From Spirochaetota bacterium (GTDB taxonomy: Bacteria > Spirochaetota > UBA4802 > UBA5550), in the NCBI GenBank assembly GCA_025457915.1, contig JALOTL010000006.1, forward strand, positions 186,001 through 250,000: a stretch of DNA of 64,000 nucleotides, written 5' to 3'. Shown one piece after another: positions 8,599 to 64,000 of this stretch. A program made the translations under genes and the position numbers. Within the stretch, counting starts at the first letter, position 1. The number at the start of each line of letters is the position of its first letter. The notes under the pieces were generated by a model. It was not told where the DNA came from. It saw only the letters and a program-made list of their open reading frames with translations, and ran no database searches.

Positions 8599-11571
8599 AT
8601 GGCACTAACCAGGAGGGAATTTTTAAAGCTCTCGGGACTTACAACTGCCGGCGCGTTTCTGGGCGGATCGGCATTCCTCAGCGGATGCAAGTCGACGCCG
8701 AAGCTCAGCGGCGCAAAGGAATCGTCGACGATATGCCCGTACTGCGGCGTCGGCTGCGGTTTGATCGTCTCGGCGCGTGACGGCAAGGTCATAAATATTG
8801 AAGGGGATCCCGATCACCCAATAAACAGAGGCGCCCTCTGCGCCAAGGGTACGGCCCTTTACCAGGTCGCCGTCAATCCCCGAAGACTCGGAAAGGTCCT
8901 TCACCGCAAGCCATACGGCGCGGAATGGGAGGAAATGTCCTGGCAGGATGCCGTTAAACTCATAGCACGGCGGGTAAAAGATACCCGCGACGCCACGTTC
9001 CAGGAAAAGGACGGCGACACGATCGTCAACCGGACTCCGGGCATAGCCAGCCTGGGCGGCGCGGCGCTCGACAACGAGGAATGCTACCTGCTGTCCAAAT
9101 TCGCGAGACTCCTCGGGGTCACCTATCTCGAACACCAGGCCCGGATTTGACACTCCGCAACTGTCGCCGGTCTGGCGGCATCTTTTGGCCGTGGAGCCAT
9201 GACGAATCACTGGATCGATCTTAAAAACGCAGACGTTATTCTTATGATGGGAAGCAATGCCGCGGAAAACCACCCGGCTTCATTCCGCTGGATACTGAAA
9301 GCCATGGAAGAGCGCGATGCGAAGCTTATCGTTGTTGACCCGCGCGTGACCAAGTCGGCCTCACTTGCCAGCCTTTACGCGCCCCTGCGGCCCGGTACGG
9401 ACCTGGCCTTTCTGGGCGGCATAATAAGCTATGCCATGGAAAAAAACCGCATACAGAAAGAATACGTTCTCGAATACACCAACGCCTCGTACCTCGTGAA
9501 TCCGCAGTACGGCTTCAACGACGGCCTTTTCTCGGGGTATGATCCCGGCAAACGCAATTACGGGGACAGGAAATCCTGGACCTATCAGCTCGACGCAAAT
9601 AAAATCCCCAAGAGGGACAAATCCCTGAATGATCCGCAATGCGTTTACCAGCTTTTGAAAAAACACTACAGCCGCTATACACCGGAAAAGGTTGAAGCGA
9701 TTACCGGCTGTCCGAAGGAAACATTCCTCAAGGTCGCGGACATTTTCACATCCACGCACAAACCCGACCGCGTTGCCACCATCATGTATGCCATGGGGAT
9801 CACCCAGCATACTGTCGGCACACAGAACGTCAGGGGCTTCTCGATTCTCCAGCTTCTTATGGGGAATATGGGTCTTGCCGGTGGAGGAATCAACGCGCTT
9901 CGCGGTGAATCCAACGTTCAGGGTTCAACCGACCACGGACTCCTTTTCCACATATTAACGGGGTATATGCCCGCGCCTACCGCCAAGAACCACCCCAACC
10001 TGGCGGCCTATAACAAGTCGCAACCACAGACCTCAGACCCGATGAGCATAAACTGGTGGTCCAACCGCTCCAAGTACCTGGTGAGCATGCTCAAGGCCTG
10101 GTTCGGCGATGCGGCAACCAAGAAAAATGATTTCGGCTACGACTGGATCCCGAAAGTCAGCAAACCCGCGCCCTACATGGTCCTTTTCGAAGACATGCTG
10201 AAGGGAATCATCAAGGGCACTTTCCTCATGGGAACAAATCCCATCGTGGGGGGACCGAATTCGAACCGGGGCGGCCAGGCGCTTGAAAAACTCGATTGGC
10301 TCGTGGCGGTCGACCTGTGGGAAACTGAATCATCGATTTTCTGGAAGCGCAAGGGGGCGAATCCTGCGCAGATCAAGACAGAGGTCTTTCTGCTCCCGGC
10401 GGCATCCTCAGTTGAAAAAGAAGGAAGCGTTTCGAATTCCGGCCGATGGGCCCAGTGGCGCTATAAAGCCCAGAACCCACCGGGGACAGCAAAGGCGGAC
10501 CTTGATATTATCGACATGATATTTCGTGAAGTCCGAAGCCTGTACAAAAAAGAAGGCGGAAAACTTCCCGAACCTATACTCAAGGCCGTCTGGGATTATA
10601 TCCATAAAGGCGAACATGAAGCCGATCCGCACATCGTTGCGAAGGAAATAAACGGCTACATCTGGAGCGACAAGGACCAGATGGAATCCTTCATGGACCT
10701 CAAGGACGACGGTTCGACCGCATGCGGCAACTGGATTTACTGCGGAAGCTATCCCGGTAAAAACATGATGGCGCGCAGGGGCACCGGTGAAGGTCCCGGT
10801 TCCATAGGAATGTACCCCGAATGGTCATGGTGCTGGCCGCTCAACCGCCGCATCATCTACAACAGGGCGGCAGTAAACAGAAAAGGCGAACCCTGGGATC
10901 CCGAACGCGCTGTAGTGAAATGGACCGGGAGCAAGTGGAAAGGCGACGTCGTGGACGGCGGCCCCAAGCTTGGACCTGATAAAAAGAACCCGTTCATCAT
11001 GAATAACGAGGGCGTAGGACGTCTGTTCGCCCCGGGTTCAGCACTGGCGGATGGGCCCTTTACCGAACACTATGAACCGATGGAGAGCCCTACTGTCAAC
11101 ACCATGAACAGCCAGAAGGTGAATCCGGCAGCCCAGATCATGGAAGGGGTCGCAGGCCAGTTTTCAAATCCGGGCCAGTATCCATATATCGGCACATCCT
11201 ACCGCGTGGTGGAACACTGGCAGGCCGGAGCCATGACCCGCAACCTTCCATGGCTCAACGAGTGCATGCCGAGCATGTTCTGCGAGATCAGCCCCAGCCT
11301 TGCAAAGGCCAAGGGGATAAAAAACGGCGACAGGGTCAAAGTTTTCAACGGCAGGGGAAATGTATCAGCCTACGCACTTGTGACAGAGCGCGTTCAGCCG
11401 ATGAATGTCAACGGAAGGGCCGTGGAAATGATCGGCCTGATATGGCATTTCGGTCAGGGCGGTGCGGCCACTGGCGATGCGGCCAATCTTCTTACGCCAA
11501 CCATCGGCGATGCCAATACCATGATCCCGGAATACAAGGCCTTCCTTGTAGATATCCGGAAGGAGGCCTAA
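8599..11571 (+). CDS. fdnG: Formate dehydrogenase catalytic subunit, selenocysteine-containing, Tat-exported
   Basis: The molybdopterin (bis-MGD) subunit oxidises formate to CO2. The ORF track splits it at an in-frame TGA (9148-9150); read as selenocysteine 184 it gives one 990-residue protein in a single frame. Residues match the FdnG/FdoG type throughout: twin-arginine motif TRREFLK (4-10), [4Fe-4S] Cys46, Cys49, Cys53 and Cys81, then ARI-Sec-H followed by TVAGLAASFGRGAMTNHW, and conserved blocks such as GGGINALRGESN and the C-terminal GDANTMIPEYKAFLVD. A SECIS hairpin follows the TGA at the canonical spacing. The Tat signal ends in LSGC (Cys30), a perfect lipobox, which FdnG of E. coli lacks. 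AAGGAG precedes the ATG. The Fe-S subunit gene starts 3 bases after the stop. Confidence 0.96.
9148..9180 (+). promoter_or_regulatory. SECIS element and UGA selenocysteine codon
   Basis: Eighteen bases after the TGA lies GGTCT, held as the apical loop of a perfect 7-bp stem (TGTCGCC / GGCGGCA, 9162-9180, with one G-U pair). In E. coli fdhF the GGUCU loop that SelB binds lies at the same 18-base distance from the UGA. This directs insertion of selenocysteine rather than termination, and implies that selA, selB, selC and selD exist elsewhere in the genome. Confidence 0.93.
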
Positions 11572-14013: not shown

Positions 14014-15165
14014 ATGGACGTTTTATTAATAATGAAATCAAAGAAAAACATATACAAGCAGCTTCGTGAACACATGGACCGCCTTCCTGTTGGCTTTCCC
14101 TCCACAATTACAGGAGTGGAGATAAGGATCCTTAAAAAGCTCTTCACGCCGGATGAAGCGCTTACCGCCCTCGCTTTAACCGGGTTATCCGAACCCATTC
14201 AAAAAATCGCGGACAGGTCGGCCGCCCCTGAACTGTCCGGACCGGAGATGGAGGAGCGTCTCGAGGGAATGGAAAAAAAGGGAACGGTTTTTTCAAGAAT
14301 CCTGGACGGTCAGCGTCTCTATTCGCTTGTCCCATATGTCGTAGGAATGTACGAGTTCCAGGCGAAGAACCTGACCGGGGAACTTTACAGAGACACCGCG
14401 AGTTATTTCAAGCAGGGTTACGCGGTTGAATACCTCACCACCAGCATACCGCAGATGAGGGTCGTTCCAATCGAGAAAAGTCTGACCCCTGGGCATTCTG
14501 TTGCCACGTACGACGAGGTTAAAAAACTTGTGTATGAAGCCGGAGAAAGAATTTCCGTGGCGGCGTGCATATGCAAAAAGGCCATGGACCTTTCCGGGGA
14601 ACTATGTGCGGCCACTGACCTGAGGGACGTATGCATCGCGCTGAGGGACTACAGTGACTTGTTCGTCCGCCAGGGCTGGGCAAGGCCAGTAAGCCGTGAG
14701 GAAGCGTTCGGCATCATTGCAGATGCCGAGAATGACGGCCTGGTCATACAGACCTCGAACGAACGCCAACCCCAGTTCATCTGCGCATGCTGCGGATGCT
14801 GCTGCGGCATCCTGGGCATGATGAAATTCTTTCCAAGGCCGGCTGATTTCGCCGCCAGCAATTACTCGGCCGTGCTGGACGCGGAAAGCTGCATCGGATG
14901 CGGAATCTGCGTTAAGCGATGCACCATGGATGCGATCGGAATAAAAAACAAAAAGGCGGCGCTAAACAGTGCCAGATGCATCGGATGCGGATTGTGCGTT
15001 TCCACCTGCAAGCCAGGGGCCCTGAAGCTTGAACGGAAAACCGTGGAAACTGTACCTCCGCTAAATACCGATGAACTGTACGGCATCATTGCTGAGAATA
15101 AAAGGTCCCGCCCTGCCAGGTTCTTCACCATCTTGAAATCCCTGCTCGGGATGAGGGCCCGATAA
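14014..15165 (+). CDS. Protein with C-terminal 2[4Fe-4S] ferredoxin domain
   Basis: The 383-residue soluble protein ends in a bacterial-type ferredoxin domain with two clusters (CIGCGICVKRC about residue 291, CIGCGLCVSTC about 326). In front of it is an extra Cys-rich patch, CACCGCCCG (about 265), and earlier a CICKK motif. The N-terminal part (residues 15-110) looks like a helical/winged-helix region. Similar proteins occur as unassigned ferredoxin-domain proteins in anaerobes. Position behind fdhE suggests it receives or supplies electrons for formate dehydrogenase, but the 100-base gap and the weak terminator leave this open. AGGGG precedes the ATG. The function is not established. Confidence 0.8.
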   Translation: MDVLLIMKSKKNIYKQLREHMDRLPVGFPSTITGVEIRILKKLFTPDEALTALALTGLSEPIQKIADRSAAPELSGPEMEERLEGMEKKGTVFSRILDGQRLYSLVPYVVGMYEFQAKNLTGELYRDTASYFKQGYAVEYLTTSIPQMRVVPIEKSLTPGHSVATYDEVKKLVYEAGERISVAACICKKAMDLSGELCAATDLRDVCIALRDYSDLFVRQGWARPVSREEAFGIIADAENDGLVIQTSNERQPQFICACCGCCCGILGMMKFFPRPADFAASNYSAVLDAESCIGCGICVKRCTMDAIGIKNKKAALNSARCIGCGLCVSTCKPGALKLERKTVETVPPLNTDELYGIIAENKRSRPARFFTILKSLLGMRAR

Positions 15166-15399
15166 AAAAACCCGGATAGACATGCCGCCATATGCGCCAG
15201 GGTTTTGAATTTCATCGAGGCCTTTTTTCAATATCCACGCGGCTTTAATACAGGTGGCATTGGGGCCGATAATCGCGATCTGCATTTGATTTATCGGCCG
15301 ATGTATTAAAAAAAATTTTTTTACATGAAAAAAATTGCAACCTGTCGGCCCGCTATTTCGTCGTTATTTTAAAGCATATTTTTTTATGAGGAGACCAAC

Positions 15400-16293
15400 A
15401 TGCTGTCTAAAATCAACGGCGCAGTTTCATTGATGATATTAATAATCAACACCATTTGTAGCGCATTAATACTTTTCCCGGTCGCGCTATTAAAGTTCTG
15501 TTTCCCGTTTAAAAAAACGACCGTTTTTTTCAATATACTTCTTAACAGAATAGCAAATGACTGGGTCTACAGGAACAATCTCACCATAAACCTGACCAAA
15601 AGGATCAACTGGCGTATAACCGGCGACGGCGTTTCAGATCCCTCCGGCAGGTACCTTGTGATTTCCAACCACCAGTCATGGGTGGACATCGTCATTCTTC
15701 AAAAGGTATTATACGGGAAAATCCCGTTTATCAAGTTCTTTCTGAAAAAGGAACTGATACGGGTACCGATCCTGGGCCTTGCATGGTGGGCTCTGGATTT
15801 CCCCTTCATGAAACGATATTCGAAGGAATTCATTGCAAAGAACCCGCACCTCAAGGGGAAAGATATTGAGATCACCAGGAAGGCATGCGAAAAATTCAAA
15901 ATAGTCCCGGTTTCGATCATGAATTTCGTTGAGGGGACGAGGTTCTGCAAGGGGACCCATGAAAGACAGCAGTCGCCTTACAGCAACCTCCTGAAGCCGC
16001 GATCCGGAGGGGTCGGGTACCTTCTCTCCGCCATGGGAGACTACCTGACAGGCATCATCAACATCACAATCGCCTACCCGTCCGGGAAGAAGGACTTCTG
16101 GTCATTTCTTAGCGGGCAAATAAAAGAAATCATGGTCGATATCCAGAAAATAAGCTTCACGAAGGAATTGCTGGGAGATTACATCAACGATACCAGGTTC
16201 CAGGAATTTTTCCAGAACTGGCTCAACGGGATCTGGAATGAAAAAGACAAAAAGCTGTCCGTTATGCTCGGAGAGAACCTCGAGCACAGTTGA
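15400..16293 (+). CDS. PlsC/YihG-type acyltransferase
   Basis: This membrane-associated glycerolipid acyltransferase has the two family motifs in order: NHQSWVD (the H-x4-D catalytic pair, about residue 87) and FVEGTR (about 182), with an N-terminal membrane helix (MILIINTICSALILFPVALL). Family members transfer an acyl chain from acyl-ACP or acyl-CoA to lysophosphatidate or a related acceptor. The 297-residue length and the context motif (KFFLKKELIRVPILGLAWW) are closest to the YihG branch rather than to housekeeping PlsC. GAGGAG is well placed before the ATG. It converges with the thioesterase gene at 16308, with only 14 bases between them. Confidence 0.87.
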   Translation: MLSKINGAVSLMILIINTICSALILFPVALLKFCFPFKKTTVFFNILLNRIANDWVYRNNLTINLTKRINWRITGDGVSDPSGRYLVISNHQSWVDIVILQKVLYGKIPFIKFFLKKELIRVPILGLAWWALDFPFMKRYSKEFIAKNPHLKGKDIEITRKACEKFKIVPVSIMNFVEGTRFCKGTHERQQSPYSNLLKPRSGGVGYLLSAMGDYLTGIINITIAYPSGKKDFWSFLSGQIKEIMVDIQKISFTKELLGDYINDTRFQEFFQNWLNGIWNEKDKKLSVMLGENLEHS

Positions 16294-53066: not shown

Positions 53067-53098
53067 ATATGGCCGTTTACACAATCTTTTTTACACCC
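53067..53098 (-). repeat. IS256-type terminal end
   Basis: The upstream side of the transposase remnant ends in GGGTGTAAAAAAGATTGTGT (minus strand), which resembles IS256-family terminal repeats (GGGTGTA...). The last two or three codons and the TAA of the activase gene (53091) overlap this end, so insertion supplied the stop. No opposite end is found in the window. Confidence 0.5.
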
Positions 53099-53894
53099 TC
53101 AAAGACGCAGCAAGACGCCTTGCGTAGACTGCAGCGCCAAGCGCACCCATAAGCTGGGGATCTACAGAAAGCGGCGTGATCTCTTCTTTAAGAATTCCCT
53201 CTAATGCCTTGAGAAGCCCCCTGTTTTTCGCACATCCCCCTGTTACTGTAACTTCAGGCCTTATACCGACACGTTTCAGGAGTGTAAAGCACCGCTTTGC
53301 AACTGCAGCCTGTATTCCTGCTGCAATATCAGCAGGAAGATTTTTCTGCGCAAGAAGGCTGATAACTTCTGTCTCTGCAAAAACGCTGCACTGGGCTGTT
53401 ACGGATAACGGGCTCTTTGACTTCAGCGAGATTTCAGAAAAATCATCAAGCTCAAGCCTGAATATCCTGCTCATGGCTTCAAAAAATCTTCCGGTTCCAG
53501 CAGCGCATTTGTCGTTCATGGCAAACTCAAGAACGCTGCCGTCTTCGTTCACGGCTATTCCCTTGACATCCTGCCCGCCGATATCTACGATTGTTTTGAT
53601 AGCCGGATTACAAAAAAAAGCACCCAGTGCATGGCAGCTGATTTCGGAAACATTCTCCTGAGCAAATGAAATCTCGCTTCTGCCATAGCCTGTACCCACA
53701 AGATATGCAACATCACTAATGTTATCCAGGCCGCTCACCTTCTCGATTACCCGGCTTAAAGACAGCCGGGCAGTTTCCTCGGGGTCGATCTCGCGCGGAA
53801 TTATAGCTGAAGCGACAATTCCTTCATCATCAATGATCACAGCCTTACCCGTGGTTGATCCTATATCACATCCTGCGTAGTATTTCTTTGTCAT
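53091..53894 (-). CDS. 2-hydroxyacyl-CoA dehydratase/benzoyl-CoA reductase activase
   Basis: This ATPase of the BadF/BadG/BcrA/BcrD/HgdC family uses ATP hydrolysis to inject a low-potential electron into its dehydratase or reductase partner. The ASKHA fold motifs are present: GCDIGSTTGKAVI (phosphate 1), VGTGYGR, VDIGGQDVK, NDKCAAGTGRF (Cys130, bridging [4Fe-4S]), AQCSVFAE (Cys169) and VTGGCAKN. At 267 residues the length is normal. The final residues and stop overlap the IS256-type end. It is the last gene of the operon and next to a dehydratase subunit, 45 bases upstream. Confidence 0.93.
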   Translation of the reverse strand: MTKKYYAGCDIGSTTGKAVIIDDEGIVASAIIPREIDPEETARLSLSRVIEKVSGLDNISDVAYLVGTGYGRSEISFAQENVSEISCHALGAFFCNPAIKTIVDIGGQDVKGIAVNEDGSVLEFAMNDKCAAGTGRFFEAMSRIFRLELDDFSEISLKSKSPLSVTAQCSVFAETEVISLLAQKNLPADIAAGIQAAVAKRCFTLLKRVGIRPEVTVTGGCAKNRGLLKALEGILKEEITPLSVDPQLMGALGAAVYARRLAASLRV

Positions 53895-53939: not shown

Positions 53940-55349
53940 TCATATTCTTTTCTTAGTATTCATAACATTTTCCATGAAATGATCCACCTGTGCCATTATA
54001 CCGGTTCTCGGAACAATACGCGTGTCTGAAAGATCGTAATCGATGATTAAAACCGGCAGACCGAGCTCACGCGCTTTCTCTCTGAGTATTCCGTTCAGGG
54101 CCTGTGTATTTTTGCAGCCGATATGGCCCGCAAGGAATATCATGTCTATATCAAATGCTTTCACGATATGAAACATATCATCGAAAAAGTTCTCCATGGG
54201 ACCGCGCGTGTGCCGGGCCATAGGACCCTGCATGATGTTTCTGCCCAATCCGCGCAGCATGGTTTCCTCATTTTCTGTATCTATAAACGGCAGCCTGTTA
54301 TATGACATGCTGTCCATGATGAGAGAAACCCCGTATGCCTGCTCTGCCCAGGCAAAAAGATCTATAAAATGCATTGTTGGCGGATTCCACAGTAGCGCAC
54401 GGTATTTTTCATCCTGTACTGCAGCAATTCCTTTATCAAGGTTGCCTTTAGCAAGACTGGCAATTTTTCTGAAAAGTTCCGTTGATGATTTATATCCAGG
54501 AAAGACATTAAATCCCCAGAGATGACTTATATAAACCGCTTCTGCAGAAACAGGAGCAGGTTTCTGTCTGATCATATCCCATAGTTCCAGTTCAATTTCC
54601 GCCATGCGGTTGCGTTCAATACATATCTCCCTGAGTAGATTCCAGTCCATCTTTCCCAAAGTATGCTTCTCAAGCCATGAAATCATTCGGCGGAGTTCAC
54701 CTGCAAAATAAACTTCAGCTTCATCGTTGTAAAAATTATAGGGGATATCAAGCCGGAAGGTCGGCAGTTTCAGTTTTTTTTCAATAAGCGCATAGGAGTT
54801 CATGCCGCCGTCACAGGGAAGATTTGATGTGACTATTGCCTGCCCGACAGGAATGTATCCCTTGACAGCAAGACCCATTGTAGCTTTGGGAAGGCTGCAT
54901 AAATCGGGCGGTATACCCTCATTTTCCGCTGCGTCAATATACTTTTCCATGACTGATGGATCCATCATAGGAAGCAGTATCCCCAGAATTTCAGGCATCC
55001 AGGGTTTAAGGCCCATGGCCCTGAGAATTTCTGGAGGGACCATGTCTTCATGTATAACCAGGCGGTCCCGGTGATGAAATATCCCTTCTAAAAGTTCAAC
55101 CATGTCTTTGGTAACCTGCGTGACAACCAGCGACACGGCTTTTCTGTAATTGCCTGTTCTGCCTGCAGCGAATTTATTCAGCAGCCGGTTGACTTTTAAA
55201 AGATCCATCATCCAGGGATATCGCTTCAAATCAAGAAGCATATAATAAACCCCGCGTCTGAAAACCATACCAAGTATGACCGCCCAGTTTATTATCTTGT
55301 GCTTCAAAAGAATAAAGGCGTCAGCTATTCCCGGCTTTTGTCTGTTCAT
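53940..55349 (-). CDS. 2-hydroxyacyl-CoA dehydratase family protein, beta-type subunit (pair 1)
   Basis: This 469-residue member of the HgdB/BadE/double-cubane family is a [4Fe-4S] protein that accepts electrons from an activase. Blocks seen are IHEDMVPPEILRAMGLKPWMPE, DLCSLPKATMGLAVKGYIP, SNLPCDGGMNSY, LPTFRLDIPYNF and LAGHIGCKNTQ. These have the layout of the family core, with Cys in the expected D-x-C-S and N-x-P-C-D sites. The N-terminal 70 residues are an extension. It is 10 bases behind the second member of the pair (55360), so they likely form a heterodimer. The substrate is unknown. Confidence 0.85.
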   Translation of the reverse strand: MNRQKPGIADAFILLKHKIINWAVILGMVFRRGVYYMLLDLKRYPWMMDLLKVNRLLNKFAAGRTGNYRKAVSLVVTQVTKDMVELLEGIFHHRDRLVIHEDMVPPEILRAMGLKPWMPEILGILLPMMDPSVMEKYIDAAENEGIPPDLCSLPKATMGLAVKGYIPVGQAIVTSNLPCDGGMNSYALIEKKLKLPTFRLDIPYNFYNDEAEVYFAGELRRMISWLEKHTLGKMDWNLLREICIERNRMAEIELELWDMIRQKPAPVSAEAVYISHLWGFNVFPGYKSSTELFRKIASLAKGNLDKGIAAVQDEKYRALLWNPPTMHFIDLFAWAEQAYGVSLIMDSMSYNRLPFIDTENEETMLRGLGRNIMQGPMARHTRGPMENFFDDMFHIVKAFDIDMIFLAGHIGCKNTQALNGILREKARELGLPVLIIDYDLSDTRIVPRTGIMAQVDHFMENVMNTKKRI

Positions 55350-55359
55350 TTTTTCACTG

Positions 55360-56484
55360 TTATTTCTTCATACTTTCGATAAATGCCTGCACCCGGGTAC
55401 GAAGCTGGCCCTCGCCTCCGGTTCTATACTCCCTCTCAAGCCGCAGAACGGGAATCCCCGCATCCCTGAGCGCAGCAACCAGAAGGCTCGACTCAACTCC
55501 CCATGTATCGCAGAACTTTATGGTTTGTATAATGATGCCATCCGCAGAATACTCCCGCGCAATATTAATGATATAATCCGCTCTCCGGTCAAATTCCTCC
55601 ATCATTCGCGGACACCGATTTTTTTCGAGTATATATAATGCAATAGCTGCGAGCGGTTTGCCGGATTCTGATATTGGTTCGAGGCCGGGGAATGAGCCTG
55701 TGCAGTAGCGGTCAGCTACCACGCGTCCGCCCATGGATTCGATTACACCTGTATACGCCGGATCATCGAGCTCTCCGCCCACGATCATGAATCTTGCGCG
55801 GAATTTACCTGCCCCGCCGCGCTTAAGAGCAGCATCGCGGAATCGTCCGGGGATATCAGATAACAGCTTTCTTGGTGCAGCCTGCAAGGCCATCATCAGG
55901 CGGTGAAACTCGGTGCCTGTAAAAAGAGGCATAGCCTCTTTTCTCATGTCACCGATTGAGCGCAGTTCGGCTAACATTATGTTATTTTCTTTAATGGAGG
56001 TTGATATTACTTCATCGCTCATATCAATATTAAAATGTGACGATAAGGCTGTTCTGAGTTTTTCCAGTTCCAGTTCCAGCCATTCCATAGCAGCCTCGTT
56101 GTTCTTATGGGGAACGTCCAGAATAAAGCTGAATTCAGGTTTGTTCAGATAACCAAGATTATCATACAGCCTTCGCAGATGGTCGCAGCTTGCTGCAAAT
56201 ACCCACCCCTTCAGAAAATCATATTTTGAATCGAGAGCAAGCTCGAGCAGGCTTCTTGTATAGGAACAGATTACACTGGATAGATAAATATCCGCGGTTT
56301 CCGTGCCCGATACACCCGGCGCACGCAACCGCAATGGAAATAAACGGCCTGCTGAAAGCACAGGTTCTGGAATAAGGCTGCAGGTGTAGCCCAGAGGAAT
56401 CATTCCATACGCAACAGCCTGTTCCACAACTTCATTACAGGGATCATCAAGCAGTCCTGCAAGATATTCCTGCAAATTATTCAT
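55360..56484 (-). CDS. 2-hydroxyacyl-CoA dehydratase family protein, alpha-type subunit (pair 1)
   Basis: The 374-residue protein has the compact family layout: GYTCSLIPEPVL (Cys35), SVICSYTRSLLELAL (Cys73), FAASCDHLRRLYD (Cys100), DVPHKN, and the late IQTIKFCDTWGVES and LRLEREYRTGGEGQLRTRVQAF. The three early Cys and the FCD Cys are the cluster ligands in this family. It could act as a dehydratase, a reductase or a double-cubane protein; the family does not settle the reaction. The start at 56484 leaves 2 bases after the CooC-like gene, instead of the overlap of the track ORF. Confidence 0.88.
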   Translation of the reverse strand: MNNLQEYLAGLLDDPCNEVVEQAVAYGMIPLGYTCSLIPEPVLSAGRLFPLRLRAPGVSGTETADIYLSSVICSYTRSLLELALDSKYDFLKGWVFAASCDHLRRLYDNLGYLNKPEFSFILDVPHKNNEAAMEWLELELEKLRTALSSHFNIDMSDEVISTSIKENNIMLAELRSIGDMRKEAMPLFTGTEFHRLMMALQAAPRKLLSDIPGRFRDAALKRGGAGKFRARFMIVGGELDDPAYTGVIESMGGRVVADRYCTGSFPGLEPISESGKPLAAIALYILEKNRCPRMMEEFDRRADYIINIAREYSADGIIIQTIKFCDTWGVESSLLVAALRDAGIPVLRLEREYRTGGEGQLRTRVQAFIESMKK

Positions 56485-56486
56485 TT

Positions 56487-57296
56487 TCAGCAGCACCCGC
56501 ATTTTGTATCAGGAATTTCATGGTGAAAAATTCCCATTTTATCAAGGCATTTACGGATAGAATCAAGTGCCGGACAATCAGACAGATTCAAAAGACTTTT
56601 TCCTTCAATATCGCTGTTTCGTATGGTTTCTTCTTCAGGAACAAATCCTAAAAATTCCACGTCTGACGGCAGCTGCATTTTACCCAGCTCAATTTCATCG
56701 CGTATACGGTTGATAATATATCCAATGCGCTCGTAGTGAACTGCTTCAGCAGCAACTTTCCTGAGGGTGGCTATCACGCCAATTCCCTTGGCCGACTGAT
56801 CTGACACAAGCATGAGGTGAGTTACGCTTTCCATAACGCGGCGATTGATCTGCTCTATGCCGGCTTCACCGTCAATTACCACGTAGTCAAAATTTCTTGA
56901 AAGATCCTTAATGACATCTTTCAGTATATCATTTACCTGGCAATAGCACCCTTCTTTTTCGGGTCTGCCTATTGCTAGAAACGCGAGATTTCCACGCTCC
57001 TCCAGCGCATTCGTTATTTCATAATCGAGAAGTGATATAACCTGCTTCCTGTCACCGCTGTCCCGATTTTCAATTTTATTTATTAGCAGATTCCGCACAT
57101 CATCCACAGTAGAGCGCACTGTGATATTCAGAGCCGATGCAAGACCTACTGCCGGATCAGCGTCTATTGCGAGCACCCTGGAACGCGGATCCGATATAAG
57201 AATTTTAGTCACAGCAGCAGCTATCGAAGTTTTACCGACACCGCCCTTTCCGCATAAGGCTATTATCTTTGTCTTCCTTTTATCAGTGCTGCACAT
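56487..57296 (-). CDS. CooC-type ATPase with CxC metal motif
   Basis: The 269-residue MinD/CooC-family ATPase has a deviant Walker A loop, GKGGVGKTS (16-24). The CooC hallmarks are all present: AIDADPAVGLASAL, the GRPEKEGCYCQVN segment (C117-x-C119, the nickel-binding motif in CooC dimers) and VIDGEAGIEQINRR. Members load nickel into CO dehydrogenase or acetyl-CoA synthase. No CO dehydrogenase gene is in the window. It overlaps the ACS-domain gene by 14 bases. The C-terminus ends CGCC, another possible metal site not typical of CooC. Confidence 0.9.
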   Translation of the reverse strand: MCSTDKRKTKIIALCGKGGVGKTSIAAAVTKILISDPRSRVLAIDADPAVGLASALNITVRSTVDDVRNLLINKIENRDSGDRKQVISLLDYEITNALEERGNLAFLAIGRPEKEGCYCQVNDILKDVIKDLSRNFDYVVIDGEAGIEQINRRVMESVTHLMLVSDQSAKGIGVIATLRKVAAEAVHYERIGYIINRIRDEIELGKMQLPSDVEFLGFVPEEETIRNSDIEGKSLLNLSDCPALDSIRKCLDKMGIFHHEIPDTKCGCC

Positions 57297-58023
57297 TTTT
57301 TTCTTCCCTGGTCAAAGTATTTCTTATGTTCCTGAGGTCTTTCACTTCGCTGCACACATCTACAAAATCGCAGGTTCCGCATTCAAACGACATTTCCGCA
57401 GCCATTTTTTTCAGAGCCCCGATTAGTCTCGATGCCCTGCCGCCTAACACTCCAAGTTCCCGTACATCCGATGGTGATGAAGTCACAAAAACAATCTCAA
57501 CTGATTTTACATAATATATTTTCCTGTAGAGCTCATTCAGCGCACTTCCTAAAACTTCAAAACTGAATGCCCGATCCATTGCCTCTCTGCTTATCCGGCT
57601 CCATTCGCGGCCATACTGCGACACTGCACGCATCATGTACCCGGAAAGCTTAAGATCGTACCGTGATAGTTCGAGTTCCATGTGCCTTTCGTAACAGTTA
57701 TCCTCATTCATGCCGCTCAATCCCAGAATCACAACCTTTCCGAAAGGAATGTTTTTCTGTTTCGATTCGCCCAGATCAGGACCGATGAGAGTAATACATC
57801 CATCTTTTATTCTGTTTTCATCTCCGGACCACAGCATAAATGAAACAGACTCATCCCGCGGATTGCCAAGCTCAATTGCGGTATCAGGTCCAAGCACTAC
57901 ATTGCCCCTGTCTGCAGCAGGCCAGTCTGATTTTATCGGGATTGAATATTCCCTGAATTGTCCGGATTTTTTCCTGTCAATATATTTTTGCAGATCAGAG
58001 ATGGCGTCATCAAAGAGATTCAT
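57283..58023 (-). CDS. Stand-alone acetyl-CoA-synthase middle-domain-like protein
   Basis: Residues 45-190 align by eye with the central domain of AcsB/CdhC. ELGNPRDESVSF matches the AcsB E-x-G-x-x-R region, IKDGCITLIGPDL matches ITDGKIEVIGPDI, and SQYGREWSRISREAMDRAFSFEVLG matches the AcsB GQRNINWLRVSKDAVAKGF block. A Cys-rich tail follows (FECGTCDFVDVC, CxxCx5C, Cys215-218-224), reminiscent of the start of the A-cluster site (CxxCx8C in AcsB), but the Ni-binding C-terminal domain is missing. At 246 residues it cannot be an ACS by itself. It may bind a corrinoid or methyl donor and a cluster. The gene overlaps both neighbours. Confidence 0.65.
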   Translation of the reverse strand: MNLFDDAISDLQKYIDRKKSGQFREYSIPIKSDWPAADRGNVVLGPDTAIELGNPRDESVSFMLWSGDENRIKDGCITLIGPDLGESKQKNIPFGKVVILGLSGMNEDNCYERHMELELSRYDLKLSGYMMRAVSQYGREWSRISREAMDRAFSFEVLGSALNELYRKIYYVKSVEIVFVTSSPSDVRELGVLGGRASRLIGALKKMAAEMSFECGTCDFVDVCSEVKDLRNIRNTLTREEKNVQH

Positions 58024-58850
58024 TTTATTTTTAAGCCTGATACGGCGGGATCCGCCGTTTCTCCGTTCTTTTTTAATAATTCAAGCGCATCAATTGCGAA
58101 TAGCGCTGCTCCTATAGCGCCATTAATCTGCGGATTATCCACCCTGTGAAGTTTAACTCCAAGAGCCCTTTCAAGAGCAGCAAACATTCCCGAGTTTTTT
58201 GCCACACCGCCTGTCATAACAGCATCCGGCGTCAGAAGAATGCCCTTTGCAAGAGATGCTGCGCGGTTTGCAACAGCCTGGTGCAGCGCGCATATAATAT
58301 CAGCGATTTCCCTGCCTTCATTTACAAGAGAAATGATTTCTGTTTCAGCAAAAACCACGCACTGATTCGACAGCGTCAGCTTCTCCGAACCGCGCCCGGA
58401 AATATCGCCCATGTCATCCAGTTTGATTTCAAGTGAATCGGCGATTATCTCGAGAAACCTGCCTGTGCCTGAAGCGCACTTGTCGTTGTATTCATATCGT
58501 TCCACGTTTCCTTTTTCATCAACCCTGATTGCTTTTGCATCCTGACCGCCTATATCAACCACAGTTCTTGCAGATGGCATCTGCCATACAGCGCCTCTTC
58601 CGTGGCAGGCAATCTCGGACTCCGTGGAGTTCATAAATGGAATATGTTTGCGGCCGTATCCTGTGCCAACACAGTATTCTATATCATCCATTGATATTCC
58701 GGCCTTTTCCACTGCAAGCTTCATTACTTCAAGTGCTGACTTTTCAGGAAGAGCTGATGCGCGGATTACCTCCGAAGAGAGCATTTCCCCATGTTTCATA
58801 ATAACGGCTTTGGCAGTAAGAGACCCTATGTCACAACCGGCAGTAATCAT
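58020..58850 (-). CDS. Dehydratase/reductase activase, second paralogue
   Basis: The 276-residue HgdC/BadF-type activase has GCDIGSLTAKAVI, VGTGYGRKHI, VDIGGQDAKAI, NDKCASGTGRF (Cys125), NQCVVFAE (Cys164) and MTGGVAKNSG. All residues for ATP binding and for the bridging [4Fe-4S] cluster are retained. It overlaps its neighbours by 4 bases on both sides. A third paralogue follows immediately upstream; why two activases sit side by side is not known, although BCR-type systems can use heteromeric activators. Confidence 0.93.
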   Translation of the reverse strand: MITAGCDIGSLTAKAVIMKHGEMLSSEVIRASALPEKSALEVMKLAVEKAGISMDDIEYCVGTGYGRKHIPFMNSTESEIACHGRGAVWQMPSARTVVDIGGQDAKAIRVDEKGNVERYEYNDKCASGTGRFLEIIADSLEIKLDDMGDISGRGSEKLTLSNQCVVFAETEIISLVNEGREIADIICALHQAVANRAASLAKGILLTPDAVMTGGVAKNSGMFAALERALGVKLHRVDNPQINGAIGAALFAIDALELLKKNGETADPAVSGLKIK

Positions 58851-59638
58851 ATAACGCCTCCAGATGCTTTTTCCATTGCAAAAAGCGCGGCTCCTATTGC
58901 CCCTGCGATCTGCGGATCTTCACGCCGTATTCTTTTTATTCTTATACCCAGATGCTTTTCAAGGGCATTCACAACTCCATTGTTTTTTGCAACTCCGCCT
59001 GTCATGCACACATCGTTCTCAAGCCCTATGCTGTTTGCAAGTATGGCCATACGGCTTGCCATCGCATTATTGACGCCTGCTGCGATATCCTCAATTGGAA
59101 CCTTATCATTTAGCTGCTGTATCACATCAGCCTGAGCCCACACAGTGCATGCAGAAGCGAAGGTAACAGGCTGTTTGGATCTGGCTGACATTTCTCCCAG
59201 TTCATCAAGATCCAGGTTCATCACCTTTGCCATTACCTCCAGAAAACGTCCTGTACCGGAAGCGCACTTGTCGTTCGTTATAAATTTCATCATATCGCCT
59301 TTGGCATCCAGGCGAATTGCCTTACAGTCCTGGCCGCCTATATCAATGACTGTTCTTACAGACGGGACTAGCCATCGCGCGCCCCTGCCGTGGCAGGCAA
59401 TCTCCGATACAGCCTCATCGATGAATGATATTTTATCCCTGCCGTAGCCTGTGCCCACGCAGTTTTTAATATCTTTCCTGTCCAAACCGGCCCGGGCGAG
59501 CGCCATATCCATAACCTCATCAGCTGACTCCCATGGCCTGGCCTTTGATTTTATAATAACAGATTTTACGATCCTGTCGTCTTTCATGATAACTGCTTTG
59601 GAGGTAAGTGACCCGACATCAACTCCGGAAACAAACAT
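58847..59638 (-). CDS. Dehydratase/reductase activase, third paralogue
   Basis: The 263-residue activase has GVDVGSLTSKAVI, VGTGYGRDKI, IDIGGQDCKAI, NDKCASGTGRF (Cys125), SACTVWAQADV (Cys164) and MTGGVAKNNG. The segment after the second cluster Cys reads WAQAD instead of the common FAESE/FAETE, a change near the cluster that separates it from the other two. The ATG shares its G/T with the stop of the dehydratase gene upstream (TAATG overlap). Together with the 58020 product it may form a heterodimeric activator. Confidence 0.92.
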   Translation of the reverse strand: MFVSGVDVGSLTSKAVIMKDDRIVKSVIIKSKARPWESADEVMDMALARAGLDRKDIKNCVGTGYGRDKISFIDEAVSEIACHGRGARWLVPSVRTVIDIGGQDCKAIRLDAKGDMMKFITNDKCASGTGRFLEVMAKVMNLDLDELGEMSARSKQPVTFASACTVWAQADVIQQLNDKVPIEDIAAGVNNAMASRMAILANSIGLENDVCMTGGVAKNNGVVNALEKHLGIRIKRIRREDPQIAGAIGAALFAMEKASGGVI

Positions 59639-61044
59639 TATACAAGCCTCCTTACCTTAAGAAATTCCATAAACCTCTCCTCTGTGGCCTCCCATGACTG
59701 CACACGCGCGTCAAATGCATCAGCATACATGATATAAGTCGGGAAGCCGGCTTTCTCTGTATCCCGCGCAAAGAGTTTAACCATACCCCATGTATTCCTG
59801 CATCCGGGAGTTCCATTGTAGACTATAAGATCAGCATTATACAATTTCGCGAGTCCCAGAGTGTCTTCCAGCCACATGTTTGGGGCATCATAAGGTCCTC
59901 GTATGGACTTGATCATCGGCATCCGCGAGTTGATCATTGCAAGACTGTCGATCAGGGAATCTATATCCGTTGTATCAATAGTATATGCAACTTCTTCTTT
60001 ATTGTACTCAGTCACATGCGGAGCATTGTGCGCCCAAGAGCGGCTGAGTATGTTGCCCTGATAGCAGATGCCGTTAATATCCAGCATTTTCCAGAGCTGA
60101 AGATTCTGTGCGTAATGATCGATATAGCAGAAAAAGGCGCGAAGCTTTTCCACGCCTCCGCTTAATCCTGAAATATTTTTTGCTGCGTTTTCACGCGCGA
60201 CTTCCAGCATCGATTCAAGCACGCCTGTACATTCAGGCATTCCTGCAAAAAGAAACCGCGATGCATAAACCATCAGATTATATGAAACCGGAAGCGGATT
60301 CGGCACCATCCGCGCAAGATCCTCAAGTTCAGCAATGATTTCGTCCTGTTTAGCAAGCTCGCGAAGATTTGCTCTCAATTTTTCCGGATCGAGTTTTTTC
60401 CCGGTCTGCTCTTCCAGAAATTTTATAAGCGCCCTGTAATCCTCTCTATGATATTCATTGGAACGCTCACCCGTTAAATCCGGAGGCATATCAAGCTGAA
60501 AAAAAGGCTTGTCAAGATATGCTGATGCGAATGCAAAAGCATTGGCGTTTGTATCGCAGACTCCGGGTGTGTCAGTAACTATCATGTCAATATCCGCGCC
60601 TATACCTGCAAGGTACGCGCCGATAGTGCCCCGTTGCGACGAGCACGAGGTTTCAGTATAACCAACCTCGTTGCAGTAATCAAGAAACTCGGCGGTTCCT
60701 CTTTTATAAGTAAAGGTCATCATAACAGAAATAACCTCAAGACAGACCGGGATAATATCCATTGCATAAAAAATAGCGGGGGAAAAGCAGAATGTTGTAA
60801 TAGCAGTTTTTTTCCCTTTTTCTTTTGCTGTGATAACGTTTTCCATATATTTTGAGCATATATCTAAAAATTTCTGTCCCGGTTCTCCTGCATCAAGTAT
60901 TGATTCAACAACACCCCTGAAATATGGAATATATTTAAGCATTGATCTGTATTCTTTTTCAGTTCCTTTTTTTAACTGGGCTGCAGCAGTAAATGAATTC
61001 CACAGCATCCAGTCAAAATTATATTCTCTGGTTTCCTTTCTCAT
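59638..61044 (-). CDS. 2-hydroxyacyl-CoA dehydratase family protein, beta-type subunit (pair 2)
   Basis: The 468-residue protein is parallel to the 53940 product in length and order of blocks: AITTFCFSPAIFYAMDIIPV, ETSCSSQRGTIGAYL, TDTPGVCDTNANAFAFAS, LDKPFFQLDMPPDL, and near the C-terminus VYNGTPGCRNTWGMVKLF. Cys in T-F-C-F, S-C-S-S and G-V-C-D are the likely cluster ligands. Tight overlaps with activase 3 and with the 61041 gene (ATGA) indicate one complex. The reaction is not deducible; the family includes dehydratases and benzoyl-CoA-type reductases. Confidence 0.85.
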   Translation of the reverse strand: MRKETREYNFDWMLWNSFTAAAQLKKGTEKEYRSMLKYIPYFRGVVESILDAGEPGQKFLDICSKYMENVITAKEKGKKTAITTFCFSPAIFYAMDIIPVCLEVISVMMTFTYKRGTAEFLDYCNEVGYTETSCSSQRGTIGAYLAGIGADIDMIVTDTPGVCDTNANAFAFASAYLDKPFFQLDMPPDLTGERSNEYHREDYRALIKFLEEQTGKKLDPEKLRANLRELAKQDEIIAELEDLARMVPNPLPVSYNLMVYASRFLFAGMPECTGVLESMLEVARENAAKNISGLSGGVEKLRAFFCYIDHYAQNLQLWKMLDINGICYQGNILSRSWAHNAPHVTEYNKEEVAYTIDTTDIDSLIDSLAMINSRMPMIKSIRGPYDAPNMWLEDTLGLAKLYNADLIVYNGTPGCRNTWGMVKLFARDTEKAGFPTYIMYADAFDARVQSWEATEERFMEFLKVRRLV

Positions 61045-62189
61045 GCTATTGCCTTTTTCTGGTGTATTCTTTCGATAAATGCGTCAACGCGCATCTTCAT
61101 CCTGCCGGTCTCCACAAGAGGGCCATACTCCCGTTCAAGGCGCATACATGGAATACCCATAGCCTCCAGGTCACGTTCGAACAGACCGTTTTCAGAACCG
61201 TGAAGATCGCAGAACCGGATATTCTGCAAAATAACACCGTCTATTTTTGCCTTTTCTACTTTTTGCACAAGTATATCAAGCCTTCTTTTGTAATCTCCGT
61301 ACATCCTGGGGCAGTCGTTGTGTCCCAGATATCTCTTTGAAAGAGCTGACACAGGATCACCGCTTTCCTCCACCTGATCAGTATAGAACCGCGAACCGAA
61401 ACAGAGGTTATCTGCAACCACTACAGCCTTTTCCCCTTCCATCACGCGAACCAGCCCAGCGTCATCATTGGCACTGCCAACGAGCATCAGCCGTACTCTA
61501 TTCTTAATCACAGGAGAATTTTCAGCTTCAGAAAGAAACTTTTCCAGCAGAGAATTATACTCTTCACGCGGCATGGTTGTGCCAGCAAGAATAACTGCCA
61601 GTGCGTCTTCTCCGTTAAATGGAGGTGCATCAAGAGTGCGCATAGCTTCAAATCGATCGAGAAGCATTCTGCTCTGATTATACAGTTTTATTGATCTATG
61701 CAGATTTTCATCTGTAATTTTTACCTTAAAATGTTCTTCCACAGCAGCAATAAGGCGATGAGTTTCTTCGGTTAACCACTTGATTGTATAATCAGAATAT
61801 TTATGCGGAACTCCGTAATGAAAAAAGAAAGAAGGTATTACACCATCAACATCGCTGCCTGCTTTACGCCAGCATTCGTCCAGGCGCCGCATTGAATCGC
61901 AGCCTGGAGTGATAATTACTCCGTCTAAAAAGTTGAATTTCCCCTCACCCGCAAGCTGAAGCATGCACTTCGGAAGACTGCACACAAACGGGCCGAAATA
62001 TGTATCACCTATTGTGGTGTCGGCAGCGCCGAAACCGCGTATTCTAAACGGGAGTATCCCTGCTGCATGAAAAACTTCATCCGGAACATACGAGCAGGTA
62101 TAGCCCACAACTTTTTTTCCGTTTTTCTTCCATTGAATTACGTGTTTATTATTAAGAACTGTGGAAGCATCAAGTAATTCCTTAATCAT
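61041..62189 (-). CDS. 2-hydroxyacyl-CoA dehydratase family protein, alpha-type subunit (pair 2)
   Basis: The 382-residue protein is parallel to 55360: GYTCSYVPDEVFHAAGILPFRI (Cys32), FVCSLPKCMLQLA (Cys70), ITPGCDSMRRLDE (Cys97), YGVPHKYSDYTIKWL, NIRFCDLHGSENG, MRLEREYGPLVETGRMKMRVDAF. It forms the second pair with the 59638 product. The two alpha-type proteins are clearly distinct sequences, not a recent duplication, so the pairs probably act on different partners or substrates. Confidence 0.88.
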   Translation of the reverse strand: MIKELLDASTVLNNKHVIQWKKNGKKVVGYTCSYVPDEVFHAAGILPFRIRGFGAADTTIGDTYFGPFVCSLPKCMLQLAGEGKFNFLDGVIITPGCDSMRRLDECWRKAGSDVDGVIPSFFFHYGVPHKYSDYTIKWLTEETHRLIAAVEEHFKVKITDENLHRSIKLYNQSRMLLDRFEAMRTLDAPPFNGEDALAVILAGTTMPREEYNSLLEKFLSEAENSPVIKNRVRLMLVGSANDDAGLVRVMEGEKAVVVADNLCFGSRFYTDQVEESGDPVSALSKRYLGHNDCPRMYGDYKRRLDILVQKVEKAKIDGVILQNIRFCDLHGSENGLFERDLEAMGIPCMRLEREYGPLVETGRMKMRVDAFIERIHQKKAIA

Positions 62190-63601
62190 ACTTTTGCCTC
62201 CCTGCTGTTCAGCGCGCTTTTTAAATAATCAAGAGCATCCTGAATTTCTTCAGAACCTCCGGCAGGATCGTGTCGAATAAGATCAGCGATCCCCCGTATC
62301 ACAGGCGGTAAAATTTCGGACGCTACCGGTTTAACGGATTCCACTACATCAGTGGTAAACCATCGTACTGATTCACCAACTTCATAAGGATCAAGAGAAT
62401 TTATTGTCTGCGACAGTGTGTTTAGTATCAGACCCGGATGAACCTCGTGAACACGGTTCAGAATTCCGCATAGTCTGTTGATCGTATCAGCCAGTTCCTG
62501 TGCGTCAATTCCACTCATCCCGCTGGAAAATTCACGCGCAATGTCTTCGTCTGAAAACAGACGCTCGAATGCATCGGTCTTGCGGCTCCATTTACGGATA
62601 TAAGTTATTATTGAAGTAAAACGACTTTTAAAATATTCCTGAGAAAGTTGAGGGCTCTGTTCCAGCAGTTCCATAAAAGCCTGTTGTGTCTGCTCCTTTA
62701 TTTCAGCAAGAAGCGTTCCGGACTTTAGAAGCAGGCTTATATCAACTGTACTCATTGTCTCTTTTGCAAGCCGCGACAGCGTATTCGGAAGCTGAGGCTT
62801 GCCAGGTTCCCCGAGCAGTGCGCTTCCCGTATGTATCTTACGCACCAGTTCGCTTAATTCATTAATAAGCATGCCGATATTTTTGCCATTAATATCATCA
62901 GCAAGAGACAATACAACATCACCGAGCAAATCCGGAGCCATGGAATTAATCGGCTTCAGAGTTTCCTTTATTGCCGAAACTGACATGTTCACTGCAGCAG
63001 GAAGAAGAGACAACAGACAAATCATCTTGGCGGGATATCTCCACATTTCCTCATTGGCCATCTTCACCATTGCAGTAAAATTTTCTTCTGAACCGTCCAC
63101 GGCTTCCTTTATCTCGCCAAAATCAACTGCCTCGATAAAACCGTGGAAGTTTTCCCTGCTTTTACCGCTGACGGAAGCCTGACCGGCAGTGCGCGTGCTG
63201 TTGACAAGTCCGGCAATACCGGTTATAATGCTGCCTATTATTCCCGCATCAATTCCGCCTGTCAGCATTTGTGCTAAATTTACCCTCTCATCGTCTGGCA
63301 GACTTCGGGATTCTTTCAATGCTGTATCCAGTGCTCCAAGCAGAACATTTACAAGAGAGTTTGACTCTTCCGTATCCGGAACAAAACTTTTTTGAAAACT
63401 TTTTATCAGATAACCCGCAGGTATTTTTTTTAAAGGATTCTTCCCCGCCCATTGTGATGCGATTTCCGGCAGCAGGGTATGCATCATTACCTTAAACTCA
63501 CTTGTTTGAACAAAGGCCCGCATCAGATCATTTAATAATGCCGGATGCTTTTCATGAGACTTTTCCTGTTTCTTTTTTATCTCAGGCATATCATTATTCA
63601 T
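62186..63601 (-). CDS. Unassigned 471-residue protein of the dehydratase operon
   Basis: I do not recognise this protein. It is long, almost wholly helical, with one hydrophobic patch (GGIDAGIIGSIITGIAGLV, about 115-133) and a second (KMICLLSLLPAAVNMSVSAI, about 192-211), no signal peptide and almost no Cys. It overlaps the ATG of the alpha-type subunit gene by 4 bases, so it is part of the operon. It could be a membrane-associated scaffold for the complex, but that is a guess from the hydrophobic patches and position. Confidence 0.75.
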   Translation of the reverse strand: MNNDMPEIKKKQEKSHEKHPALLNDLMRAFVQTSEFKVMMHTLLPEIASQWAGKNPLKKIPAGYLIKSFQKSFVPDTEESNSLVNVLLGALDTALKESRSLPDDERVNLAQMLTGGIDAGIIGSIITGIAGLVNSTRTAGQASVSGKSRENFHGFIEAVDFGEIKEAVDGSEENFTAMVKMANEEMWRYPAKMICLLSLLPAAVNMSVSAIKETLKPINSMAPDLLGDVVLSLADDINGKNIGMLINELSELVRKIHTGSALLGEPGKPQLPNTLSRLAKETMSTVDISLLLKSGTLLAEIKEQTQQAFMELLEQSPQLSQEYFKSRFTSIITYIRKWSRKTDAFERLFSDEDIAREFSSGMSGIDAQELADTINRLCGILNRVHEVHPGLILNTLSQTINSLDPYEVGESVRWFTTDVVESVKPVASEILPPVIRGIADLIRHDPAGGSEEIQDALDYLKSALNSREAKV

Positions 63602-63620: not shown

Positions 63621-64000
63621 TCATATTAATATCTTTCTTTGAAAAACTGCATCTCCGCGCGGACCGGGATTTTTCATAAGCATTGTAACTATGTTATCCC
63701 TTGTCTTTTCCACAGCCAGATCAATATTTTCGGATACGTCCACAATGAGCGGTTCTACCAGGCGGCTGAAAAGTTCTATCTGGCGTGAATATTCTTTTTT
63801 ATCCGGAGTTGCCAGAGAATGAAAAACTATACCGAGAAAGTGAATAAATATGGACTGGGCAAACTGCAGCGAGATGTTGAGCTTATCCGACATGCTGTCT
63901 GAATATCTATCAAGAAAAAAAGAATAAACCTTCTCGTAATGTTCAACGCTTGTATTTCTCTGTAAGTCAATTACCAGAAGCATGAGATTCTGATAGAATT
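63621..64000 (-). CDS. Partial ORF, possible TetR-family C-terminal domain
   Basis: The frame is open from the right edge of the window (residues ...FYQNLMLLVIDLQRN), so the start lies outside. The 126 visible residues are all helical (YEKVYSFFLDRYSDSMSDKL, FAQSIFIHFLGIVFHSLATPDKKEYSRQIELFSRLVEPL), which fits the ligand-binding half of a TetR-type regulator, but no helix-turn-helix is visible here. It lies 19 bases before the 471-residue gene and may be the operon's regulator. Confidence 0.5.
   Translation of the reverse strand, partial: FYQNLMLLVIDLQRNTSVEHYEKVYSFFLDRYSDSMSDKLNISLQFAQSIFIHFLGIVFHSLATPDKKEYSRQIELFSRLVEPLIVDVSENIDLAVEKTRDNIVTMLMKNPGPRGDAVFQRKILI

Follow-up and report, generated by a model that had tools for sequence, protein, structure and literature searches.

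A free-standing middle domain of acetyl-CoA synthase with three A-cluster-type cysteines, encoded beside a CooC-type ATPase in operons of ATP-driven reductases

Acetyl-CoA synthase (ACS) is seen as an ancient enzyme of carbon fixation, whose domains are, to our knowledge, usually discussed only inside ACS itself. Double-cubane ATP-driven reductases operate at very low redox potentials. PMC11971306 describes HgdB-type reductases as a family acting on CoA thioesters and gives Cys36, Cys73, Cys100, Cys263, Cys293 and Cys327 as ligands of the [8Fe-9S] cluster of BzdN. The ATPase CooC1 binds metal at its dimer interface by Cys112 and Cys114 (PMC6006190). Stand-alone PF03598, the CdhC family of ACS, was noted in 2015 as one of the commonest Pfam domains of the 'putative partial' type (PMC4443539). 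Here, we analyze a window of 64,000 nucleotides from a Spirochaetota bacterium (contig JALOTL010000006.1, positions 186,001 to 250,000) that encodes a free-standing protein of 246 residues, which we call mini-ACS. Its gene lies beside that of a nickel-loading-type ATPase within an operon of 'Birch-type' reductases, an arrangement which suggests that a part of an ancient nickel enzyme has been put to a use not described so far.

The mini-ACS open reading frame (ORF) starts with ATG and overlaps its neighbors by 4 bp (BadF2) and 14 bp (CooC). These tight operon overlaps, together with 14 relatives of 41-60% identity found in a search of genome contigs, make clear that the ORF is real. A preliminary description of the locus had assigned the protein to the AcsB/CdhC central domain by the motifs DGxITLIGPD and WSRISREA and a CxxCx5C tail. 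All of these are present (DGCITLIGPD, WSRISREA and C215-x2-C218-x5-C224), and the assignment holds. In Pfam-A only PF03598 is matched, over residues 37-182, with an E-value of 4.3e-12 and a score of 46.6 bits (cut-off 24), and no unrelated family matches better. Only ACS models stand at the head of the NCBIfam list (NF040764, E 1.2e-13), with scores well short of their full-length cut-offs, and the best matches of a PDB sequence search are likewise ACS. An AlphaFold2 model built from 57 homologues reached a pLDDT of 92.5 and a pTM of 0.88. A fold search of the PDB gave 23 matches at E<=0.001, every one of them to ACS, and the hit ranked next had an E-value of 0.24. The profile score and the fold thus agree on the ACS middle (A2) domain. 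Profile, fold and conservation rule out a chance match or an artefact as the origin of this signal, and conserved gene order and invariant residues rule out a fragment of ACS. A plasmid search gave no match, and an apparent fusion at locus L049 was dismissed as merely an open frame within GC-rich DNA.

The preliminary description had also called the protein free of the A-cluster domain. This is correct in that the Pfam-A scan finds no match to PF19436, the A3 or A-cluster domain of ACS; the fourth cubane cysteine is absent, and the protein stops 22 residues past the tail motif, without a nickel-binding CGC. It is not correct for the tail itself, whose cysteines fall on cubane cysteines 1-3 in the alignment; mini-ACS can therefore be described as A2 followed by just the beginning of A3. 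Among 57 free-standing relatives, a set that reaches down to 20% identity and excludes the weak match L071, which lacks the motif, seven residues are invariant: G53, P55, G128, R143, C215, C218 and C224. The cysteines are hence among the strictest-conserved residues, above most of the fold core. When the family was aligned by hhalign to five full-length ACS proteins (E 1.5e-17 overall), the alignment passed A2 and reached the motif, setting CxxC-x5-C of mini-ACS on CTLC-x8-C of ACS. The second A-cluster cubane cysteine is Cys509 in Moorella numbering. An hmmsearch of the PDB with the mini-ACS profile matched up to residue 510 of the Moorella and residue 193 of the Methanosarcina enzyme. Each match stops two residues short of a phenylalanine, Phe512 and Phe195 respectively, and since these are equivalent in the two proteins (PMC11474084), C218 is placed on the second cubane cysteine. 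Residues 183-226 alone select the same site in the 769-column ACS profile with a score of 18.9. The highest score among 60 shuffled controls was 17.4, and among 60 more in which the cysteines were fixed it was 16.3. Support for homology of the tail to the A-cluster loop is thus moderate, not overwhelming, and the sequence profiles back the earlier placement of Cys215, Cys218 and Cys224 at the position of the A-cluster cubane.

The gene content of the carrier genomes sets mini-ACS apart from ACS. This genome is 96% complete and contains no second PF03598 match, no A3 domain (PF19436) and no match to the nickel carbon monoxide dehydrogenase (Ni-CODH, TIGR01702) with which ACS co-occurs. It encodes a single CooC, and since neither ACS nor Ni-CODH is present, this CooC has no known client except possibly mini-ACS. 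Co-occurrence in the 26 other carriers was counted by CODH and PF19436 matches, not by matches to the A1 profile. Neither was found in 18 of them, six of which are at least 90% complete (G139, G162, G131, G007, G032 and G057), and the family is therefore independent of the Wood-Ljungdahl pathway. Full-length ACS does stand alongside mini-ACS in some other carriers: PF19436 detects it in 7 of the 26, several of them without a second A1-profile match. A separate observation concerns a 1167-residue ORF (L101:2864-6367, G166:C19) that fuses a full ACS (CODH_A_N, CdhC and A3, with CxxCx8Cx9CG complete in the last) with a CdhD corrinoid-protein domain (PF03599, residues 873-1102); ACS open frames of like length (1085-1170 residues) occur in four other Spirochaetota genomes.

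In a survey outside Archaea and Firmicutes, the mini-ACS family recurs with intact frames in many genera of Spirochaetota and Desulfobacterota-type bacteria, largely in the same gene order. This family of 57 and its conserved operon bear out the idea of an ACS domain reused alone. A tree separates the five ACS A2 domains from all free-standing members by a single long branch (100/100); it is unrooted and gives no direction of change. Subfamilies at just 20-35% identity retain the company of CooC and HgdB/BadF genes. Of the 51 distinct loci that have 1 kb or more of sequence on each flank, 41 have CooC directly adjoining mini-ACS, and 48 have HgdB/BadF genes no farther than 6 kb away. One locus (L070:8431-13571, G139:C7) has two mini-ACS genes that flank HgdB2S, HgdB2L and BadF3, with one CooC after the second copy.

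The adjoining ATPase has CooC1 as its best solved-structure match and carries both hallmarks of CooC, a deviant Walker A motif (GKGGVGKT) and the Cys-x-Cys pair, which is kept in 44 of 44 relatives. The minus-strand operon runs in the order TetR regulator, 471-residue helical protein, HgdB1S, HgdB1L, BadF1, BadF2, mini-ACS, CooC, HgdB2S, HgdB2L and BadF3, with overlaps between most neighboring genes (Table 1).

Table 1. Features of the mini-ACS operon, in positions of the window
Feature	Position	Strand	Basis
Mini-ACS, free-standing ACS-middle-domain protein, 246 aa	57283..58023	-	PF03598, fold matches, 57-member family
ACS A2 (middle) domain homologous stretch, residues 37-182	57478..57915	-	PF03598; hhalign to ACS
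C215-x2-C218-x5-C224 motif, aligned with ACS A-cluster cubane cysteines 1-3	57352..57381	-	Conservation, profile alignments, shuffled controls
CooC-type MinD/Mrp ATPase, 14 bp overlap with mini-ACS gene	56487..57296	-	Best PDB match 3kje CooC, E 1e-19
CooC Cys117-x-Cys119	56940..56948	-	Counterpart of Ni/Zn-binding pair in C. hydrogenoformans CooC1
HgdB1S, small HGD-D subunit, six double-cubane cysteines	61041..62189	-	PF06050; BzdN alignment
HgdB1L, large HGD-D subunit, three conserved Cys (134, 163, 415) and Cys86	59638..61044	-	PF06050; Cys counts
BadF1, BadF/HgdC-type ATPase activator	58847..59638	-	TIGR00241 E 9e-77
BadF2, BadF/HgdC-type ATPase activator	58020..58850	-	PF01869, TIGR00241 E 9.5e-69
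HgdB2S, small HGD-D subunit, six conserved cysteines	55360..56502	-	PF06050
HgdB2L, large HGD-D subunit, BzdO-like	53940..55349	-	Best PDB match BzdO 8s02_A, E 3.4e-13
BadF3, BadF/HgdC-type ATPase activator	53091..53894	-	TIGR00241 E 1.6e-68
TetR-family regulator, C-terminal part	63621..64000, gene to about 64292 beyond window	-	Full ORF in L066; homologues PF00440
Conserved all-helical 471-aa protein	62186..63601	-	No Pfam/NCBIfam match; kept in operon

Both small reductase subunits conserve the six double-cubane cysteines (C32/70/97/263/293/327 in HgdB1S, C41/79/106/267/297/331 in HgdB2S), and those of HgdB1S align with the [8Fe-9S] ligands listed for BzdN. The large subunits keep three cysteines (C134/163/415 in HgdB1L, C151/179/412 in HgdB2L), which presumably correspond one by one to those that hold the active-site [4Fe-4S] cluster in BzdO. 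The catalytic His131 of BzdO, three residues past the second cysteine, is replaced by Gly in HgdB2L and by Gln in HgdB1L; since neither large subunit has an equivalent, a reaction other than benzoyl-CoA reduction is likely. The substrate is probably a CoA-bound hydrophobic compound, because the operon includes the TetR regulator and, upstream of it and outside the window, a gene for a GMC-type FAD oxidoreductase, and because acyl-CoA ligases or enoyl-CoA hydratases lie beside related operons. The 471-residue protein belongs to no Pfam or NCBIfam family, and its low-confidence model has no PDB fold match and therefore gives no substrate hint. Near the mini-ACS operon of L069, a weak SCP2 sterol-transfer match below the cut-off (10440-10907) and a phytoene-desaturase-like FAD enzyme (14359-15804) may hint at a hydrophobic substrate. 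An acyl-CoA dehydrogenase-like gene flanks L059 and L060. This genome also has a further HGD-D pair away from the mini-ACS operon, within one 800-residue open frame (G000:C30:14963-17230).

We propose that mini-ACS is an ACS-derived mini-metalloprotein that serves the ATP-driven double-cubane reductases and has its cluster matured by its own CooC, a reading that we consider to have about an even chance of being right. The protein would consist of A2 and a shortened copy of the loop bearing the first three A-cluster cubane cysteines. These would bind a [4Fe-4S] or [3Fe-4S] cluster and leave one of its positions without a protein thiolate. A small cluster in the tail, as put forward earlier, is probable. 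The adjoining CooC might ready or load this open site by its Cys-x-Cys pair, possibly with nickel. Holo-mini-ACS could then serve the reductases encoded alongside it (HgdB1S/L with BadF1 and BadF2, HgdB2S/L with BadF3), either by carrying electrons at low potential or as an accessory redox subunit. Nickel is plausible because of the ACS ancestry and CooC, and it is not required because the CGC motif, Cys278 and Cys280 in Methanosarcina ACS (PMC11474084), is missing.

Several points weigh against this proposal. The tail alignment is short and, taken alone, weak (E 0.016), and the nickel-binding residues of ACS are absent. The three cysteines could hold zinc, cluster and nickel being predictions from sequence. 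CooC might have a different client within the operon; it does not directly adjoin mini-ACS in 10 of the 51 loci, and a subclade (L076, L077 and L085) has neither CooC nor HgdB/BadF genes nearby. Such loci would suit a scaffold or substrate-docking subunit, in which the A2 fold binds CoA or partner proteins, the cysteines form a structural Fe-S or zinc site and CooC matures something else in the operon. The conserved fold with its intact core and the CoA thioesters on which the reductase family acts (PMC11971306) agree with such a role, which we regard as possible though doubtful: the cysteines are under stricter conservation than most of that core, and a CooC so regularly next door is a better fit to a shared task than to a client elsewhere. 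The most far-reaching form of our own proposal, a natural minimal nickel-iron-sulfur protein with a three-cysteine A-cluster, loaded with nickel by CooC and working outside CO and acetyl chemistry in an ATP-driven double-cubane reductase, seems to us rather unlikely.

Mini-ACS could also be an assembly factor, a transient Fe-S or metal scaffold that works with CooC to build the HgdB/BadF clusters and stays outside the active enzyme. Its gene almost always accompanies those of the reductases and in most cases that of a CooC-type ATPase, and three-cysteine sites are suited to cluster transfer. However, BzdNO with its double-cubane cluster was reported with no such factor named in the excerpted text of PMC11971306, and CooC has been argued to deliver nickel and not to build Fe-S clusters (PMC6006190), which makes this role distinctly unlikely. 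Both the scaffold and the assembly factor fit the context less directly than a three-cysteine Fe-S protein. Docking of a corrinoid protein, raised in the preliminary description, is very improbable: no CoFeSP subunit (PF03599) scores above the cut-off in this genome, with one sub-threshold match, no corrinoid protein is found among the operon proteins scanned, and many carriers lack CODH and the A3 domain. A decaying, functionless remnant would account for only part of ACS being present, yet it is refuted, and left with practically no probability, by a family whose frames stay intact across many genera, whose motif never varies and whose gene order is kept.

A widespread stand-alone A2 domain with the first A-cluster cysteines and its own CooC in CODH-free genomes would mean that the A-cluster scaffold has found use twice, or else give a hint at the origin of the site, and mini-ACS and CooC offer a concrete protein pair for the nickel question. 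If the three-cysteine Ni-Fe-S protein were real, it would add a new class to the components of nickel enzymes. The operon itself marks a distinct, uncharacterised branch of double-cubane ATP-driven reductases. The literature searched, whose coverage leaves out most subscription-journal papers and bioRxiv preprints, yielded no account of the cysteine tail, of the pairing with CooC or of the operon. The nearest mention is PF03598 as a 'putative partial' domain (UniProt B8FZT4; PMC4443539), likewise a stand-alone domain, whose occurrences were tallied in 2015 and linked to CATH 3.30.1650.10; in the accessible portion of that paper it is an annotation question, with no cysteine motif, operon or function. 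Compared with AcsB/CdhC (PF03598 and PF19436), mini-ACS shares A2 in sequence and fold and has tail cysteines that line up with cubane cysteines 1-3, but it lacks A1, the fourth cubane cysteine, the CGC nickel motif and A3, spaces its cysteines by x5 instead of x8 and occurs without CODH. The neighboring ATPase is a homologue of CooC1 of C. hydrogenoformans (3kje) with P-loop and Cys-x-Cys, but here the usual client CODH is absent and CooC travels with mini-ACS. With class I benzoyl-CoA reductase BzdNO, HadBC, the double-cubane protein DCCP and the BadF/HgdC activators, the operon has in common the two small/large subunit pairs, the six plus three cysteines and the activators. Unlike these systems, it combines two reductase sets with mini-ACS, CooC and a GMC-type FAD oxidoreductase.
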